Source: Flavobacteriaceae bacterium (GTDB lineage Bacteria > Bacteroidota > Bacteroidia > Flavobacteriales > Flavobacteriaceae). From it: a DNA stretch of 39,089 nt. Positions 2,626 to 8,572 of this stretch are shown here, piece after piece (the stretch's first letter is position 1; every line of letters starts with the position of its first letter). Made by a program: the position numbers and the translations under genes. The stretch covers positions 1 through 39,089 of the forward strand of contig JAOZLL010000014.1 of assembly GCA_029934835.1 (NCBI GenBank). The letters run 5' to 3'. The notes beneath the pieces are model-generated. The model worked only from the letters and a program-made list of their open reading frames with translations, was not told where the DNA came from and ran no database searches.

Positions 2626-3546
2626 ATGAAGCAATTCTTAAGCATCCACCCTATAGTACAAAAAGCATTAGATAATAATCAAGCAGTAGTCGCTTTAGAA
2701 TCAACTATTATTTCACATGGGATGCCTTATCCTAAAAATTTAGAAACGGCTTTGATGTTGGAAGATGAAGTACGAAAAAACGGAGCGATACCAGCAACCA
2801 TTGCTTTAATAAATGGTAAAATTAAAGTTGGTTTAACAAAAGAGGAACTTACTTATTTAGCTAAAGAAGGGACTAAAGTTATCAAAACCAGTCGTAGAGA
2901 TATACCTTATGTATTAGCTAAAAAATTAACAGGAGCAACAACAGTTGCTACCACGATGATTGCTGCCGAAAAAGCAGGAATAGCCATTTTTGCCACAGGA
3001 GGAATTGGTGGTGTTCACAGAGGTGCTTCAAAAACTTTTGATATCTCAGCTGATTTACAAGAATTAGCCCATACTAATGTTGCGGTAGTTTGCGCAGGTA
3101 TAAAAGCTATTTTAGATTTAGAACTAACCCTTGAGTATCTCGAAACACTCGGTGTACCGGTTTTAGGTTACAAAACTGATGAATTACCGGCATTTTATAC
3201 CCGAAAAAGTGGATTTAAGGTAGATTATAATATGCAAAACCCTCAAGAAATTGCAGATTTACTTAAAGCAAAATGGAATTTAGGTTTAAAAGGTGGTGTT
3301 GTACTAGCCAATCCTATTCCAGAAGCTAGCTCAATGGATTTTGACGAAATGACAATGGCAATTGATCAAGCAATTATTGAACAAAACAAATTGGGTATAA
3401 AAGGGAAAGAAAGTACGCCCTTTTTATTAGCCAAAGTTAAAGAACTCACCCAAGGAAAAAGCCTAGAATCTAATATTGAATTGGTAAGGAATAATGTGAT
3501 TTTGGCTTCGAAGTTGGCGGTGGCGTATGTGAAGACAACACTATAG
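2626..3546 (+). CDS. psuG: Pseudouridine-5'-phosphate glycosidase
   Basis: A 306-aa protein, full length for PsuG, which cleaves pseudouridine 5'-phosphate reversibly to uracil and ribose 5-phosphate. Family blocks are visible in order: ALESTIISHGMPYP (Glu25), IKTSRRD (Lys87), ATGGIGGVHRG, SADLQEL (Asp143), VCAGIKAILD (Lys160, the position of the Schiff-base lysine), and LVRNNVILASKLA near the C-terminus. No psuK kinase gene is visible beside it, so its substrate supply is not explained locally. The stop codon overlaps by six bases the end of the convergent LRR pseudogene. The last bases of psuG (GACAACACTATA) reappear at the internal junction of the tandem duplication downstream. Confidence 0.95.
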   Translation: MKQFLSIHPIVQKALDNNQAVVALESTIISHGMPYPKNLETALMLEDEVRKNGAIPATIALINGKIKVGLTKEELTYLAKEGTKVIKTSRRDIPYVLAKKLTGATTVATTMIAAEKAGIAIFATGGIGGVHRGASKTFDISADLQELAHTNVAVVCAGIKAILDLELTLEYLETLGVPVLGYKTDELPAFYTRKSGFKVDYNMQNPQEIADLLKAKWNLGLKGGVVLANPIPEASSMDFDEMTMAIDQAIIEQNKLGIKGKESTPFLLAKVKELTQGKSLESNIELVRNNVILASKLAVAYVKTTL

Positions 3547-4623
3547 CTTCCCAGCTTTGAATATTTTTTTAGATAATACTTTATTATTTTTGAGTTTAAT
3601 TTTTAGAATATAAAAACCATTCTTAAAACTACTTGTATCAATAAAACTATCTCTTGTTTTTAGTATTTCTTTACCTAATATATCAAAAACTGAAATATCA
3701 AATTCTTCATCATTACTGTAATCAATAGATAAAGAATTTATAAAAGGGTTTGGATAAACACTCAGTTTATTTGTATAACTATTTTCGTTAATATTTAATG
3801 CTTCACATTCGGTTACAGTTTCTACAAACGTGCTATTATCATCAACATTTAACCAGTTTTCAGTACTAAAAACTGCATCATTTACAAATATACAAGTAAG
3901 GTTTGGTGTGTCAGTTGAGATAAATTCAGTAATATTTATATTGTTCCCATTTCTAACATCAATTGTTTCTAGTTGACTATTCATACTACAGCCTATTTTT
4001 TCAATATTTGTGTTCTGTGATAAGTCAATGGTGTTAAACTGGTTCATAATACAATAAAAAGTATTTAAATTTACTAAATTACTTACATCAATAGATGTAA
4101 GATTATTATTACCTATCTGAATAAAGTCTAACATAGTATTATCCCCTGAAATAAATGTATCTATTTCGTTAATAGGACATGATAAATGGTTTAGTGATAG
4201 ATTGTTACTAATGTCCAAGCTTTCTAACATATTGCTTGAACAATATAAAACTTCTAATGCTAAGTTGTTACTAACATCTTATGTTGTAAGATTATTATCG
4301 CTACAACGCAATTCTTTTAATTTTAAATTTTGGCTCACATCAAGTTCTGATAAATTCATAAAGGTAACATTTAAAATCTCTAAATATTCAAAATCTTGAA
4401 TACCCGTTAAATCAGTTACTTGACAACCATCAGGAAGTACTTCTAGGGTTGTTATTGTGTTAATATCTGATGTAAGAACTTGTCCATCATGAGTTCCTTC
4501 ACTATCTATACCTTCTCCAATAAGAAACACCTCAAAACAAGGATCTGGTATTGTAGTATATTGGGCTTTTACAAGCCCAATATTTGCAATAATTAATAAT
4601 AAAAATAATTTTTTATTTATCAT
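3541..4623 (-). pseudogene. LRR protein with T9SS sorting domain, broken by one stop
   Basis: Copy A of a duplicated surface-protein gene. The same frame runs from MINKKLFLLLIIANIGLVKAQ (ATG at 4621-4623) to the stop at 3541. It is interrupted by one in-frame TAA at 4279-4281, inside the LRR motif NNLTT*DVSNN. Copy B has Leu (TTA) at the matching place, so a single T-to-A change explains it. Parts in order: signal peptide, YTTIPDPCFEVFLIGEG block, bacterial LRRs (LDVSQNLKLKELRCS), then a T9SS type A sorting domain (VYPNPFINSLSIDY to KKIFKAGKL). Unless the stop is read through or the base is an error, the truncated product would lack half of the LRRs and the sorting domain and could not be secreted by T9SS. 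Confidence 0.88.
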
Positions 4624-4654
4624 ATTTAAAATGCTTTCTGTTTTTGAGACAACA

Positions 4655-5737
4655 CTATAACTCACCAACTTTAAATATTTTTTTAGATATTACTTTATTA
4701 TTTTTGAGTTTAATTTTAAGAATATAAAAGCCATTCTTAAAACCGCTTGTATCAATAAAACTATCTCTTGTTTTTAGTATTTCTTTGCCTAATATATCAA
4801 AAACTGAAATTTCAAATCCTTCATCATTACTATAATCAATAGATAAAGAATTTGTAAAAGGATTTGGATAGACATTTAGTTTGTTAGTATAACTATTCTC
4901 GTTAATACCTAAGGCTTCACATTCTGTCTGAGTTTCTACAAATGTGCTATTATCATCAATATTTAACCAGTTTTCAGTACTAAAATCTGCATCATCTACA
5001 AATATACAAGTAAGGTTTGGTGTTGCTAAAGTACTATAATAAGTAATATTACCATTATTACCATTTCTTAAGTCTAATGTTTCAAGACTATCATTATTAC
5101 CACATCCCAATAGTTCAATATTGACATTTTGTATTAAGTCTATATTTGTTATAGAATTATGTCCGCAGCCAAAAGAAGTCAAATTAGTCAAGTTGCTTAC
5201 ATCTATAGTTGTTAAGTTGTTAAAACTGATTTCAAAATATTCTAAATTATTATTAGAACTTGAATTAAAAATGGTAATTTGATTTGATGGACAAGCTAAA
5301 TATTCTAATAACAAATTATTACTTATATTTAAGGAAGTTAATAAGTTATCAGCGCAATGTAATTTTTTTAGTTTTAAGTTTTGTGATATATCTAATTCTG
5401 TAAGAACATTAAAGCTACAACGCAATTCTTTTAATTCTAAATTTTGGCTCACGTCAAGTTCTGATAAATTCATAAAAGTAACATTTAAAATCTGTAAATA
5501 TTCAAAATCTTGAATACCCGTTAAATCAGTTACTTGACAACCATCAGGAAGTACTTCTAGGGTTGTTATTGTGTTAATATCTGATGTAAGAACTTGTCCA
5601 TCATGAGTTCCTTCACTATCTATACCTTCTCCTATAAGAAAAACTTCAAAACAAGGATCTGGTATTGCAGTATATTGGGCTTTTACAAGCCCAATATTTG
5701 TAATAATTATTAATATTAGTAAATTTTTATTTATCAT
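4655..5737 (-). CDS. Secreted LRR protein with T9SS sorting domain
   Basis: Copy B of the duplication, intact, 360 aa. The signal peptide MINKNLLILIIITNIGLVKAQ is followed by a short Cys-containing block (IPDPCFEVFLIGEGIDSEG). Then come LTGIQDFEYL and about eight short LRRs of the pattern L-x-x-L-x-x-L-D-[IV]-S-x-N-x-x-L. The C-terminus is a type A sorting domain: NVYPNPFTNSLSIDY, FDILGKEIL, GFYILKIKLKNNKVISKKIF. The product should cross the outer membrane by T9SS and be anchored or released, with the LRRs as a binding surface; the ligand is unknown. The N- and C-terminal DNA is nearly identical to copy A, whereas the central LRRs differ strongly. Confidence 0.9.
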   Translation of the reverse strand: MINKNLLILIIITNIGLVKAQYTAIPDPCFEVFLIGEGIDSEGTHDGQVLTSDINTITTLEVLPDGCQVTDLTGIQDFEYLQILNVTFMNLSELDVSQNLELKELRCSFNVLTELDISQNLKLKKLHCADNLLTSLNISNNLLLEYLACPSNQITIFNSSSNNNLEYFEISFNNLTTIDVSNLTNLTSFGCGHNSITNIDLIQNVNIELLGCGNNDSLETLDLRNGNNGNITYYSTLATPNLTCIFVDDADFSTENWLNIDDNSTFVETQTECEALGINENSYTNKLNVYPNPFTNSLSIDYSNDEGFEISVFDILGKEILKTRDSFIDTSGFKNGFYILKIKLKNNKVISKKIFKVGEL

Positions 5738-5781
5738 AATTAAAATACTTTCTGTTTTTATGTACCATCATCATCGTTCTT

Positions 5782-7272
5782 TTAATTATCTGTTTTGTAA
5801 ATTGTTTCTTCAACTTTATTGCCTTTTATACTCGTTTTTTCAATATGGTGATACTTATTATTTTCTAATTGTTGTATAAGGTTTGGATCACTTGCTTGAA
5901 TACTATCTAAAGTCTGTTCGGTATAATTTGGATTATTGTAATTAGTAAAAGTAAGTACTTTTCCACTACCTATAGCTTCTTCTACACAAATTTGTCCCCT
6001 TGCGCATACGCCACTAGTAAATACTATTGAGGAGTCATCTAATTGATAAATTTTAGTACCTATTTGATAGGTGTTGTTGAATATAGGAACGTCATATCCT
6101 GCTGTAAAGCTATCAAAAGGATCACTATTAGCATCAAGATAGAAATCATAATCAAAACCAGGTTGAAAATAATCTAAGTTAACAATGTTTCTACAAACTA
6201 ATAAAAACCCATTACCTAGGTCTTCTATACTAATTACGATATCACCAGCACCTAAATAATTTTTATAAGGTTCATATAATGCCGATACTACTGTCATCCT
6301 AGGTGTAAATTCCGTATTGGTTGGGTCAAGTATTGTTTCTCTCATTCTTACTCCTTGACCATTTGTAAAATGTATTTTACCCATATATCCATAAGCCATG
6401 AAATTTTGGATATCAACATCAATATAAGGCTCATCAGTTCCTGAATTATCAATAATATCAGGGTGAGAAATATAAGTTATTTCACCCGTTGTTAAATTTT
6501 TACAAAAATTATAGGTAGCATGATAAAATTGAGCTGGTGTGTCAATGACCATATCGCCTGTTACAGCAGCATTAAAATAAGAACTGTTTGCATCTCTAGT
6601 TACATTTTCTGAAGCGCTAGTATATGTTCCTGGTGTTATTAAATATTCGTTACTATAAGTAACATCAAGTATAGGAGGGCAAACATCATTAAAAATGGTT
6701 TCACTTGAAGCTGATGTTCCACGAAAAGGGTGCATTAAACCTGCTAAGTGACCAAATTCATGTGTTATGGTGGTATTACCAATTAATATGTTAGCAAAAT
6801 TCCATGCGGGCATTTTTACATATTGTTCTTGGAAGAGTGCTCCACCTGCGGCTACATATGTAGGTATAATCATTACATTTATAGAATCAGCATAATCTGT
6901 TTCAAGATTTAAAAGATCAAAGTATTGAGAATGATCTGTATCATAATATAGAACATCGTCGTCAATAGTTCTGTATCCTCGATATTTGTAAAAAATATTA
7001 TATTGATTAAAATTGATATTAAGTTGTGCGATACTAGCAAGTATATGATCTTCAGTTATACCATCAGGATTTATGCCATCACTAGGGTTTATTAGGTGGT
7101 AATATACATTAAAAACTATAGGATCATCAGTTGAGAAATCACTCCTTAAGGTTGTAGAATACTTTGAAGCATCTAACATATTTGGAGTTGGGATAAAATC
7201 ACATGAACCTGTTATTTGTGAATAAGCAAGAAAAGGTAATAGTAATAGAATAATAATAAGTTTTTTCATCAT
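5782..7272 (-). CDS. Secreted M43-type (pappalysin/cytophagalysin) zinc metalloprotease
   Basis: 496 aa from the ATG at 7270-7272 (MMKKLIIILLLLPFLAYSQ, a clear signal peptide). The longer frame, opening with a TTG at 7314, would bury this signal. The metzincin motif HEFGHLAGLMH is at residues 171-181. A later NFMAYGY Met-turn is followed by FTNGQGVRMRETI, the usual M43 arrangement. The N-terminal half has the M43 precursor-type block (FNVYYHLINPSDG). Unlike its neighbours, the C-terminus has no YPNP-type T9SS sorting domain (it ends in charged IEKTSIKGNKVEET), so it may stay periplasmic or use another route. It lies 45 bases upstream of the intact LRR copy and may form one secreted-protein operon with it. 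The substrate is unknown. Confidence 0.87.
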   Translation of the reverse strand: MMKKLIIILLLLPFLAYSQITGSCDFIPTPNMLDASKYSTTLRSDFSTDDPIVFNVYYHLINPSDGINPDGITEDHILASIAQLNINFNQYNIFYKYRGYRTIDDDVLYYDTDHSQYFDLLNLETDYADSINVMIIPTYVAAGGALFQEQYVKMPAWNFANILIGNTTITHEFGHLAGLMHPFRGTSASSETIFNDVCPPILDVTYSNEYLITPGTYTSASENVTRDANSSYFNAAVTGDMVIDTPAQFYHATYNFCKNLTTGEITYISHPDIIDNSGTDEPYIDVDIQNFMAYGYMGKIHFTNGQGVRMRETILDPTNTEFTPRMTVVSALYEPYKNYLGAGDIVISIEDLGNGFLLVCRNIVNLDYFQPGFDYDFYLDANSDPFDSFTAGYDVPIFNNTYQIGTKIYQLDDSSIVFTSGVCARGQICVEEAIGSGKVLTFTNYNNPNYTEQTLDSIQASDPNLIQQLENNKYHHIEKTSIKGNKVEETIYKTDN

Positions 7273-7306
7273 AAAAAAATAAAAATGGTATACACTAATA
7301 CCTTTC

Positions 7307-7371
7307 GTTAACAATTTTTAGTATGCTACAAAATTGTGGATTAATCAATCCGCTACAAGGCATTGTTAGGC
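7307..7371 (-). other. attC-like hairpin (integron-type site), tentative
   Basis: Read on the minus strand it opens GCCTAACAATGCC, an RYYYAAC-type R'' box, and closes AATTGTTAAC, only a partial GTTRRRY box. The ends pair (TAACAAT at 7309-7315, ATTGTTA at 7362-7368) and the centre forms a GGATT-AATC-AATCC hairpin. It lies 35 bases before the M43 protease start, where an attC would lie ahead of a cassette gene. No integrase and no second attC downstream of the protease are visible, so this may be only a structured repeat. Confidence 0.3.
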
Positions 7372-7379
7372 TAAAAGTG

Positions 7380-7387
7380 TATCTTTG
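7380..7387 (+). promoter_or_regulatory. Probable -7 box (TATCTTTG) for an untranslated transcript
   Basis: It matches TAnnTTTG exactly. There is no start codon with an open frame nearby; the next gene starts 322 bases downstream at 7709. The structured sequence at 7388-7507 follows at once. A TTG at 7363-7365 is the nearest -33 candidate, but the spacing is short. Confidence 0.45.
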
Positions 7388-7507
7388 CACTTCCTCTGTG
7401 TGGGTTTGGCTAGTTCATAGGCAAATTGGGTTTTAGGTTAATATTATTAGCGTACTATTTTTCTATCCCTTACACAGGGGGTTTTTCATGCCAGAGGCAG
7501 ACAAGTG
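7388..7507 (+). ncRNA. Candidate small RNA or attenuator with competing hairpins
   Basis: Visible pairings: CACTT (7388-7392) with AAGTG (7503-7507); CCTCTG (7393-7398) with CAGAGG (7492-7497); TGTGGG (7399-7404) with CCC and CACA at 7467-7476. An alternative hairpin CCCTT-acac-AGGGG at 7467-7480 is followed by GTTTTT and resembles an intrinsic terminator. The TGTGGG pairing uses the same bases and excludes it. The long-hairpin outline is loosely like 6S RNA, but no known family was recognised. The rest of the 436-bp gap (7508-7708) is AT-rich with a 14-T run, and no further gene is seen in it. Confidence 0.4.
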
Positions 7508-7632
7508 TTTTATATTAATTGTGATTTTTTGTAGCAATTCAATTTTAAGGGTGTTTTTTTAGGGAGTTAAACGTTTTGTAAATGTAAATAATAAAATTGT
7601 AAATACACTTATTTTTGATTGAAAAGTAAAAG

Positions 7633-7708: not shown

Positions 7709-8572
7709 ATGAAAAAACTCATCTATCTATTTATAAATTTTTCAATCATTGTTTCCTGTCAAGATTCGGGAAGGAATATTCAAACTAAAACTTTATTCAC
7801 TGCCAAAGTTTCAACCAAACAACTACTCCAAAAAGAAGGGACTATTATTAAAACGCGCTTTAATCCACCAACAGGTTTTAGCAGATTACAAACGAAGTCA
7901 ACTAGTTTTGCTAGTTATCTACAAAACTTTAAACTTAAACCACACGATGCTAAAGTTCATTTATATAATGGGGAACTCAAATATAGACAAGATGTGCATT
8001 CTGCTGTTTTGGATATTGATGTAGGTACACGAGATTTACAGCAATGTGCTGATGCCACTATGAGATTAAGAGCAGAATATTTATACCAGCAAAAACAATT
8101 TGATAAAATCAGTTTTAATTTTACCAACGGTTTTAAAGCTACCTATTCCAAATGGCGGCAAGGAAATAGAATAAAAGTCAACGGAAATAAGGTTATTTGG
8201 GTGACATCTAATTCAGAATCAACATCATATAAATCATTTAGAAAGTATTTGGTGATGGTTTTTAGCTATGCGGGAACCTTATCTTTGGCTAAAGAACTGC
8301 CATCAGTTTCTTTAAAAAATTTAGAAATAGGCAATATATTTATTCAAGGAGGAAGTCCAGGTCATGCTATTATTGTAGTTGATATGGCAAAGAATGAACA
8401 AGGTAAAAAAATGTTTTTACTCGCTCAAAGCTATATGCCTGCACAAGAAATTCATATTTTAAAAAATCCAAACAACACCGAATTAAGCCCTTGGTATCAA
8501 ACTAAAAACTTAGAAAAACTAGTGACTCCAGAATGGACTTTTTCTAAGGAATATATAAAAGGTTTTAAATAA
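7709..8572 (+). CDS. DUF4846 family lipoprotein
   Basis: 287 aa from the ATG at 7709 (MKKLIYLFINFSIIVSC), with lipobox cysteine Cys17; the open frame extends upstream, but this start gives a proper lipoprotein signal. The body matches the DUF4846 pattern: a TRFNPPTGFSR opening, FKLKPHDAKVHLYNG, VLDIDVGTRDLQQCADA, and later GNIFIQGGSPGHAIIVVDMA and LLAQSYMPAQEIHIL before a conserved PWYQ. The family is common in Bacteroidota and has no established function. GSPGHAIIVVD and AQSYMPAQEIHIL contain His and Asp/Gln residues that could form an active site, but this is only a guess. It precedes ppdK in the same orientation by about 105 bases. Confidence 0.85.
   Translation: MKKLIYLFINFSIIVSCQDSGRNIQTKTLFTAKVSTKQLLQKEGTIIKTRFNPPTGFSRLQTKSTSFASYLQNFKLKPHDAKVHLYNGELKYRQDVHSAVLDIDVGTRDLQQCADATMRLRAEYLYQQKQFDKISFNFTNGFKATYSKWRQGNRIKVNGNKVIWVTSNSESTSYKSFRKYLVMVFSYAGTLSLAKELPSVSLKNLEIGNIFIQGGSPGHAIIVVDMAKNEQGKKMFLLAQSYMPAQEIHILKNPNNTELSPWYQTKNLEKLVTPEWTFSKEYIKGFK

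Follow-up and report, generated by a model that had tools for sequence, protein, structure and literature searches.

A predicted structured small-RNA gene in Flavobacteriaceae, usually back to back with genes for exported proteins

In the 39,089-nucleotide stretch of Flavobacteriaceae DNA analyzed here (the window, which is contig C66 of a genome of 2.47 Mb in 179 contigs, 88% complete), the sequence TATCTTTG at 7380 to 7387 is followed by a foldable stretch of about 95 nt that ends in GTTTTTC. TATCTTTG fits the TAnnTTTG consensus of a promoter box, which the available text of a study of Flavobacterium psychrophilum locates at −12 to −5 (PMC9723704), and from this placement the RNA is predicted to start at about 7392. 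On the opposite strand lies a gene for a protein of 495 amino acids, reading away from the box. The next gene on the + strand is, as had been annotated from the sequence, that of the DUF4846 protein, with its ATG at 7709, about 220 nt past the T-run. The features of the locus are as follows.

5782..7269, − strand: divergent partner gene, 495 aa, with a signal sequence by eye; its start codon lies 124 nt before P1
7380..7387, + strand: promoter −7 box TATCTTTG, from the exact sequence and the TAnnTTTG consensus
7392..7487, + strand: RNA gene with a predicted transcript of about 95 nt, from the geometry of the promoter box, the covarying closing helix, and the T-run
7393..7402, + strand: 5′ arm CCTCTGTGTG of the closing helix P1, from covariation
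7405..7412, + strand: 5′ arm TTTGGCTA of the P2 hairpin, from pair probabilities and an arm-permutation test
7418..7425, + strand: 3′ arm TAGGCAAA of the P2 hairpin, inside a conserved CATAGGC motif, from the fold, the alignment, and permutation
7431..7445, + strand: conserved, mostly unpaired segment, from near-invariant columns in alignments A7 and A8
7465..7482, + strand: alternative local hairpin ATCCCTT-ACAC-AGGGGGT, which competes with P1 (−6.9 kcal/mol alone)
7471..7480, + strand: 3′ arm TACACAGGGG of P1, from the fold and covariation
7482..7486, + strand: T-run, the 3′ end of the predicted terminator, from the T count after P1

The stretch from 7388 to 7507 has a folding energy of −32.5 kcal/mol (z −2.34), which was equalled by 2 of 200 dinucleotide shuffles; the fold of the opposite strand is unremarkable (z −1.04), with 31 of 200 shuffles as good. 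P1 is one 10-bp helix in the minimum-free-energy fold, joining 7393 to 7402 with 7471 to 7480 at pair probabilities of 0.79 to 0.94. P2 has pair probabilities of 0.87 to 0.99, except for the G at 7409, which is unpaired. The mostly unpaired segment 3′ of P2 has a family consensus of about TTTTAARTTAAACA and reads TTTTAGGTTAATATT in the window. A first-pass annotation had described a promoter box followed by mutually exclusive hairpins, and the sequences it named are all in place: the box, the CCCTT-acac-AGGGG hairpin with its T-run (7465 to 7486), TGTGGG (7399 to 7404), and CCC and CACA (7467 to 7476). The long-range helix that it built on TGTGGG is largely part of P1, but the 10-bp helix had been split in two. 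A further, outer helix between CCTCTG (7393 to 7398) and CAGAGG (7492 to 7497) is not supported; the letters are present, but the second arm lies beyond the T-run.

BLASTN over 60 genomes, its own included, found no homologue of the element beyond its own genome, and the hits in close relatives were short chance matches in AT-rich DNA, except for one match of 22 nt adjoining DUF4846 in a congener (G006). Among 397 genomes of the family, two matches with the same architecture were found (L045 and L047, the latter being one locus with L066), and their P1 arms, CCTCCGGTTA/TAACCGGAGG and CCTCCAGT/ACTGGAGG, make the same helix from different letters. A DNA pattern of the conserved core, in which P1 was not used, was scanned over genome contigs and gave 25 loci. 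Nine of them have P1 plus a box or near box and come from Aureibaculum marinum, A. flavum, Tenacibaculum aquimarinum, Polaribacter sp. IC073, and five MAGs; the remaining 16 are without P1 and were taken as chance. The covariance model searches scored about 10 candidates per genome, so that their genome counts are lower bounds: model R1 (the window, L045, and L047) found the element in 7 of the 397 genomes; model R2 (14 members) in 16 of 397 at an E value of ≤0.1, or 14 once the chance hits L110 and L111 are removed; and model R3 (28 members), run on 346 genomes of the order with an E value of ≤0.01, in 9, with 7 genuine cases that all belong to the window's family.

We counted 35 intact members. 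Those from the sampled genomes are all within the Flavobacteriaceae, the window's family, and one member (L082) is labelled just as a Bacteroidetes MAG. In the window's genus the element is present in one of seven genomes; three others gave four weak hits, all put down to chance. Among 12 genomes, there are seven copies in G181, five in T. aquimarinum, two each in G401, G243, G398, and Polaribacter sp. IC073, and one in each of the other six. Two of the G181 copies (L151 and L152) look decayed and stand outside the 35, so that G181 and T. aquimarinum have five intact copies each, with differing peptides. Loci in or across ORFs or without P1 were dropped (L110, L111, L126, L127, L129, and L160 to L163), and sites met again were counted once (L044, L045, L047, L064, L075, L089, L090, L096 to L102, L119, L120, L122, L123, L125, L130 to L140, L142, L144, L145, and L147 to L149).

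The compensatory changes that the first-pass annotation proposed to look for in relatives are present in P1, which covaries: alignment A8 (28 members) has 242 P1 cells, 97.1% of them paired, and 26 double-sided changes. Its covariation score is 0.385 in A8, against 0.183 in shuffled alignments (0 of 500 as high) and 0.094 in the best slid control. In alignment A7 (MAFFT, 14 members), with 16 double-sided changes in P1, the score is 0.368, against 0.197 in shuffled alignments (0 of 500) and 0.204 in the best slid control. One P1 position shows G-U, G-C, U-A, C-G, and U-G. Two of the five measures in each covariation test are not clearly above shuffles: for pairs changed on both sides, 183 of 500 shuffles were as high in A7 and 239 of 500 in A8, and for further pair types, 499 and 13 of 500, respectively. 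The P1 cells of A8 include 27 G-U and 0 A-C pairs among the 242, and those of A7 include 4 G-U and 2 A-C, both A-C pairs being from one misaligned row. The excess of G-U over A-C favors RNA pairing on the + strand. Both this excess and the paired percentage lean toward the P1 reading because selection used P1 on the + strand: pattern hits without P1 were discarded, R1 to R3 contain P1, and the best P1 partner on the + strand decided where each row ended. BLAST or the core pattern had been the first route to nine of the 14 A7 members, one of them the window. For P2, each 5′ arm was set against every 3′ arm, and the mean was 14.6 with its own partner and 11.1 with the others, which 0 of 20,000 permutations matched, and likewise 0 of 20,000 with 18 less redundant members, in a permutation that ignores relatedness among members.

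A strict TAnnTTTG box ends 5 to 13 nt before P1 in 20 of the 35 members, and a near box like TAnnTTCG takes the same position in three more (L067, L082, and L083). The box is found 52 to 60 nt upstream in seven members, and the near box TACTTTTA is found there in three; in several members of this distant-box group an extra hairpin can be seen by eye between box and P1. No clear box was found in L070 and L109. At least six T's stand in the 12 bases after P1 in all 35 members, in DNA that is AT rich. AGG occurs within 14 nt upstream of the box in 21 of the 30 boxed members, compared with 9.3% of 14-mers in upstream DNA, and often takes the form ctacGAGGa or aAGGAAAtac, which hints at shared control. 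Sequences of the GAGGA/AGGAAA type stand shortly before TAcTTTTG in, for example, L103, L107, L108, L114, and L076b, and are possibly a site for a dedicated activator or sigma factor.

The divergent partner in the window has weak similarity to metallopeptidase M43 (Pfam E value of 4.5e-4, below the cutoff) and to NCBIfam TIGR03952 (E value of 1.8e-4, far below the cutoff). By script, a divergent upstream ORF is present in 34 of the 35 loci, the exception (L080) ending at a contig edge, and its size is 66 to 140 aa in 26 of the 34. The divergent start codon lies 50 to 180 nt before P1, with the peptide of L121 starting farther away. As judged by eye from a signal sequence or lipobox, the partner is exported in 31 of 33 assessable loci (L109 and L112 are ambiguous), be it a peptide, a protease-like protein, or a lipoprotein; in L115, a fragment of a small HTH protein stands in place of the divergent exported gene. 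Sixteen of the small peptides, five of them without their C termini and one (L070) the second peptide of its row, had no Pfam match at an E value of ≤0.01, and the comparison of small peptides with NCBIfam gave two weak matches below the cutoff. The gene that follows encodes a Porph_ging/GLPGLI protein (PF09697) in six of six chosen loci (L066, L067, L068, L076, L086, and L103). In another five chosen loci, it encodes a DUF5128 6-bladed propeller (PF17170) in four (L104, L106, L113, and L116) and DUF4221 in L108. No Pfam match was found for L107, L114, and L150, which have larger first proteins. Genes for export are seen on the other side in several loci: outer membrane efflux in L116, HlyD in L070 and L143, AcrB-like in L112, and signal peptidase in L113.

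A small HTH protein of 66 aa recurs beside the RNA, downstream in L104, L106, L108, L116, and L121 and upstream in L144. It starts with MTYPERKEKEKHLL in several loci, has a sub-threshold DeoR HTH match, is accompanied in some loci by an outer membrane efflux gene, and is a candidate regulator. The exported peptides of G181, G401, G375, G073, and G680 have a common N-terminal part ending near ANAE or ANAQ, with 6-bladed-propeller proteins next in several loci. Six peptides of this type were tested and matched no Pfam model; we take them to be reminiscent of NVEAL peptides.

On the other side of the element, counting ORFs of 100 aa or more that start at least 80 nt after P1 begins, 21 loci have a convergent first ORF, 7 have a codirectional one (239 to 461 nt away), and 7 have none. 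In two loci without a scored ORF (L070 and L109), the 3′ end of the RNA is overlapped by a convergent gene (HlyD-like in L070), and the two transcripts would overlap in antisense. Comparison of the 35 loci found no conserved gene downstream of the element, and the element is absent from all five DUF4846 orthologues of the genus (69 to 76% identity). The 22-nt match, at 7533 to 7554 (96%, E value of 0.023), occupies the same place upstream of the DUF4846 orthologue in G006 (locus L039), and its position just after the element, in one of the five orthologues, suggests that the DUF4846 leader starts beyond the element. In two other congeners (L038 and L041), an Indigoidine_A gene directly adjoins DUF4846; the protein in L041 is 87% identical to that of the window, and L038 shows the end of the same protein. 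A block of about 4 kb, made up of the RNA and the divergent genes, is thus present in the window and absent at this junction, which indicates that the RNA and the divergent genes are gained or lost together; insertion would be the simpler reading.

The block spans 3541 to 7530 of the window and encodes Por_Secre_tail and LRR proteins, the M43-like protein, and the RNA. In the third congener (L039), DUF4846 is preceded by a gene containing a GLPGLI motif, and the RNA is missing. Two adjacent genes on the − strand, 4279 to 4668 and 4655 to 5737, have nearly identical starts, the second being the LRR/Por_Secre_tail gene, which suggests a tandem duplication with one copy truncated. The interval from the divergent gene to the promoter box contains, at 7303 to 7372, a palindrome, GTGGATT-aatc-AATCCGC, flanked by AACAAT/ATTGTT and a repeated GCTACAA; by eye it is integron attC-like, with outer boxes that fit poorly. 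An ORF of 24 aa at 7488 to 7562, with GGGGG in front, was considered as a toxin with a sequestered start and rejected because it enters the stretch shared with G006 and because the G run is the P1 arm.

The first-pass annotation had seen in its mutually exclusive hairpins the logic of an attenuator or riboswitch. The competition itself is there in the window, where the local hairpin on the 3′ P1 arm excludes P1, and a hairpin of at least four pairs, three of them G-C, was found on this arm in 9 of the 35 members (the window, L065, L066, L067, L088, L082, and L083, with another form in L124 and L128). It was not found in the other 26, so the exclusion is not conserved, and because the local hairpin and P1 precede the same T-run, either fold would terminate, which leaves the logic of an attenuator absent. 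Together with the lack of a consistent gene downstream and of conserved alternative structures in front of one, and with a DUF4846 leader that seems to begin past the element, this largely refutes control of a downstream gene, which we regard as very improbable. The same annotation had also suggested a small RNA of the 6S type, which would mimic an open promoter; a closing helix, a stand-alone position, and a similar length speak for it. Compared with the 6S models, as had been proposed, the element matched neither RF00013 nor RF01685, at the gathering threshold or up to an E value of 10. The 6S-Flavo RNA (RF01685, 105.6 bits) is found on contig C126 of the same genome, with RF01685 present in seven of seven genomes of the genus and 0 of 14 control genomes and RF00013 in none of the seven at an E value of ≤1. 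The defining feature of 6S RNA is a central open bubble, and instead of a long helix with such a bubble, the structure supported here consists of P1, P2, and the unpaired segment. Membership in the 6S family is refuted, and we give a 6S-type RNA almost no credence.

The divergent layout, with a short peptide of hydrophobic start in most relatives, would also suit the antitoxin RNA of a type I pair like IstR/TisB, in which the hydrophobic peptide would be the toxin and the RNA would silence its mRNA by pairing. Antisense complementarity to the leader and first codons was not seen, as pairing of the RNA with its cognate leader has a mean z of +0.36 over 34 loci, without enrichment. An apparent leader pairing with a permutation value of 0 was an artefact of three strong cases (L068, L107, and L114) in which the leader taken overlaps the RNA gene. 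Some of the partners have 375 to 495 aa (the window, L082, L083, and L107), and the peptides, by eye, have signal sequences and long mature parts; an antitoxin is therefore unlikely. The position of the element by exchangeable genes and in multicopy arrays, together with the conservation immediately before the −7 box, could point to an element that folds only in DNA: a promoter or operator serving both directions, or a site of recombination or mobility. The 27 G-U and 0 A-C pairs of A8 fit pairing in RNA from one strand, though selection leaned that way, and the order of promoter box and T-run is correct. The element had no match in a plasmid collection nor, with one strict pattern, in viral contigs. 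We consider a pure DNA element unlikely.

A search of Rfam 15 at the gathering threshold gave no match at the window and nine other members (L045, L047/L066, L068, L070, L076, L082, L083, L086, and L088). In permissive searches, one match to LLnc147 was found in the window (E value of 8.9, 14 bits versus a cutoff of 127), and six loci, including L108, L114, and L116 as additional ones, gave nothing at the element. The scans thus covered 13 of the 35 members, and at these 13 loci no Rfam family matched, in line with the first-pass annotation, which recognized none. Our literature searches on flavobacterial small RNAs and peptide-linked RNAs turned up no description of this RNA family. It is apparently undescribed in flavobacteria, though it may be related to Rfp18, discussed below.

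An independent small RNA, which the first-pass annotation had considered at least as likely, is strongly supported by covariation, its own promoter box, its own T-run, the relatives, and the lack of a linked downstream gene. We think it fairly probable, from sequence comparison, that 7392 to 7487 is a stand-alone structured small-RNA gene of a Flavobacteriaceae family, predicted to act as a diffusible regulator tied to modules of exported proteins. Since its relatives usually stand divergently beside a gene encoding a small exported peptide or a lipoprotein, the RNA is probably part of a regulated secretion module. It would be transcribed and released at the T-run, with P1 and the following T-run doubling as terminator, and P1, by locking its ends, would keep it stable. 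The conserved loop of the P2 hairpin and the unpaired segment may bind a shared RNA or protein target instead of the cognate leader. Control of the divergent promoters is probably joint, with the RNA coupled to the exported operon through the common promoter region, and in this way the RNA might tie the production of, or the response to, the neighboring exported proteins to the state of the cell. Points against this explanation, besides the selection and the weaker covariation measures described above, are that pairing with the cognate leader was not seen, that the family is sparse, in at least 14 of 397 sampled genomes of the family and one of seven in the window's genus, and that the window's own partner is protease-like rather than a small peptide.

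A more specific version, by analogy, is that a modular peptide-signaling or peptide-weapon system of flavobacteria has this RNA as its effector inside the cell, as agr pairs a pheromone operon with RNAIII. In each cassette, one copy of the conserved RNA would go with a single variable exported peptide, which has a GLPGLI or propeller protein as partner and is at times accompanied by export genes, and such copies would multiply within a genome; we put this forward as speculation with a rather small chance of being right. The element would add a structured RNA family that has covariation support and, in the members scanned, no match in Rfam 15. Two groups of flavobacterial genes about which little is understood, those for small exported peptides with GLPGLI or with 6-bladed-propeller partners, would gain a shared candidate regulator, and the repeated layout of one RNA per peptide makes the role of the exported peptides approachable.

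Among known RNAs, 6S-Flavo (RF01685) is likewise a stand-alone flavobacterial RNA of about 100 nt, but it is a separate gene on C126, and the element fails its model. For F. psychrophilum, the available text of the study cited above reports 85 new RNAs, including Rfp18, which affects metalloprotease mRNA levels and reportedly uses its third stem-loop for pairing (PMC9723704). Going by that description, which is the only basis of the comparison, the element resembles Rfp18 as a stand-alone flavobacterial small RNA, with the metalloprotease link set beside the weak M43 partner of the window, and differs from it in having two conserved helices where Rfp18 has a third stem-loop. In IstR-1/tisB and other divergent type I antitoxin RNAs, a small RNA is divergent from a short peptide gene; the element shares this arrangement, whereas its antisense complementarity to the cognate leader is not beyond chance. 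RNAIII is a regulatory RNA head to head with the agr operon for an exported peptide, and the element, whose RNA is much shorter, is like it in layout only, as a predicted regulatory RNA head to head with an exported-peptide operon.
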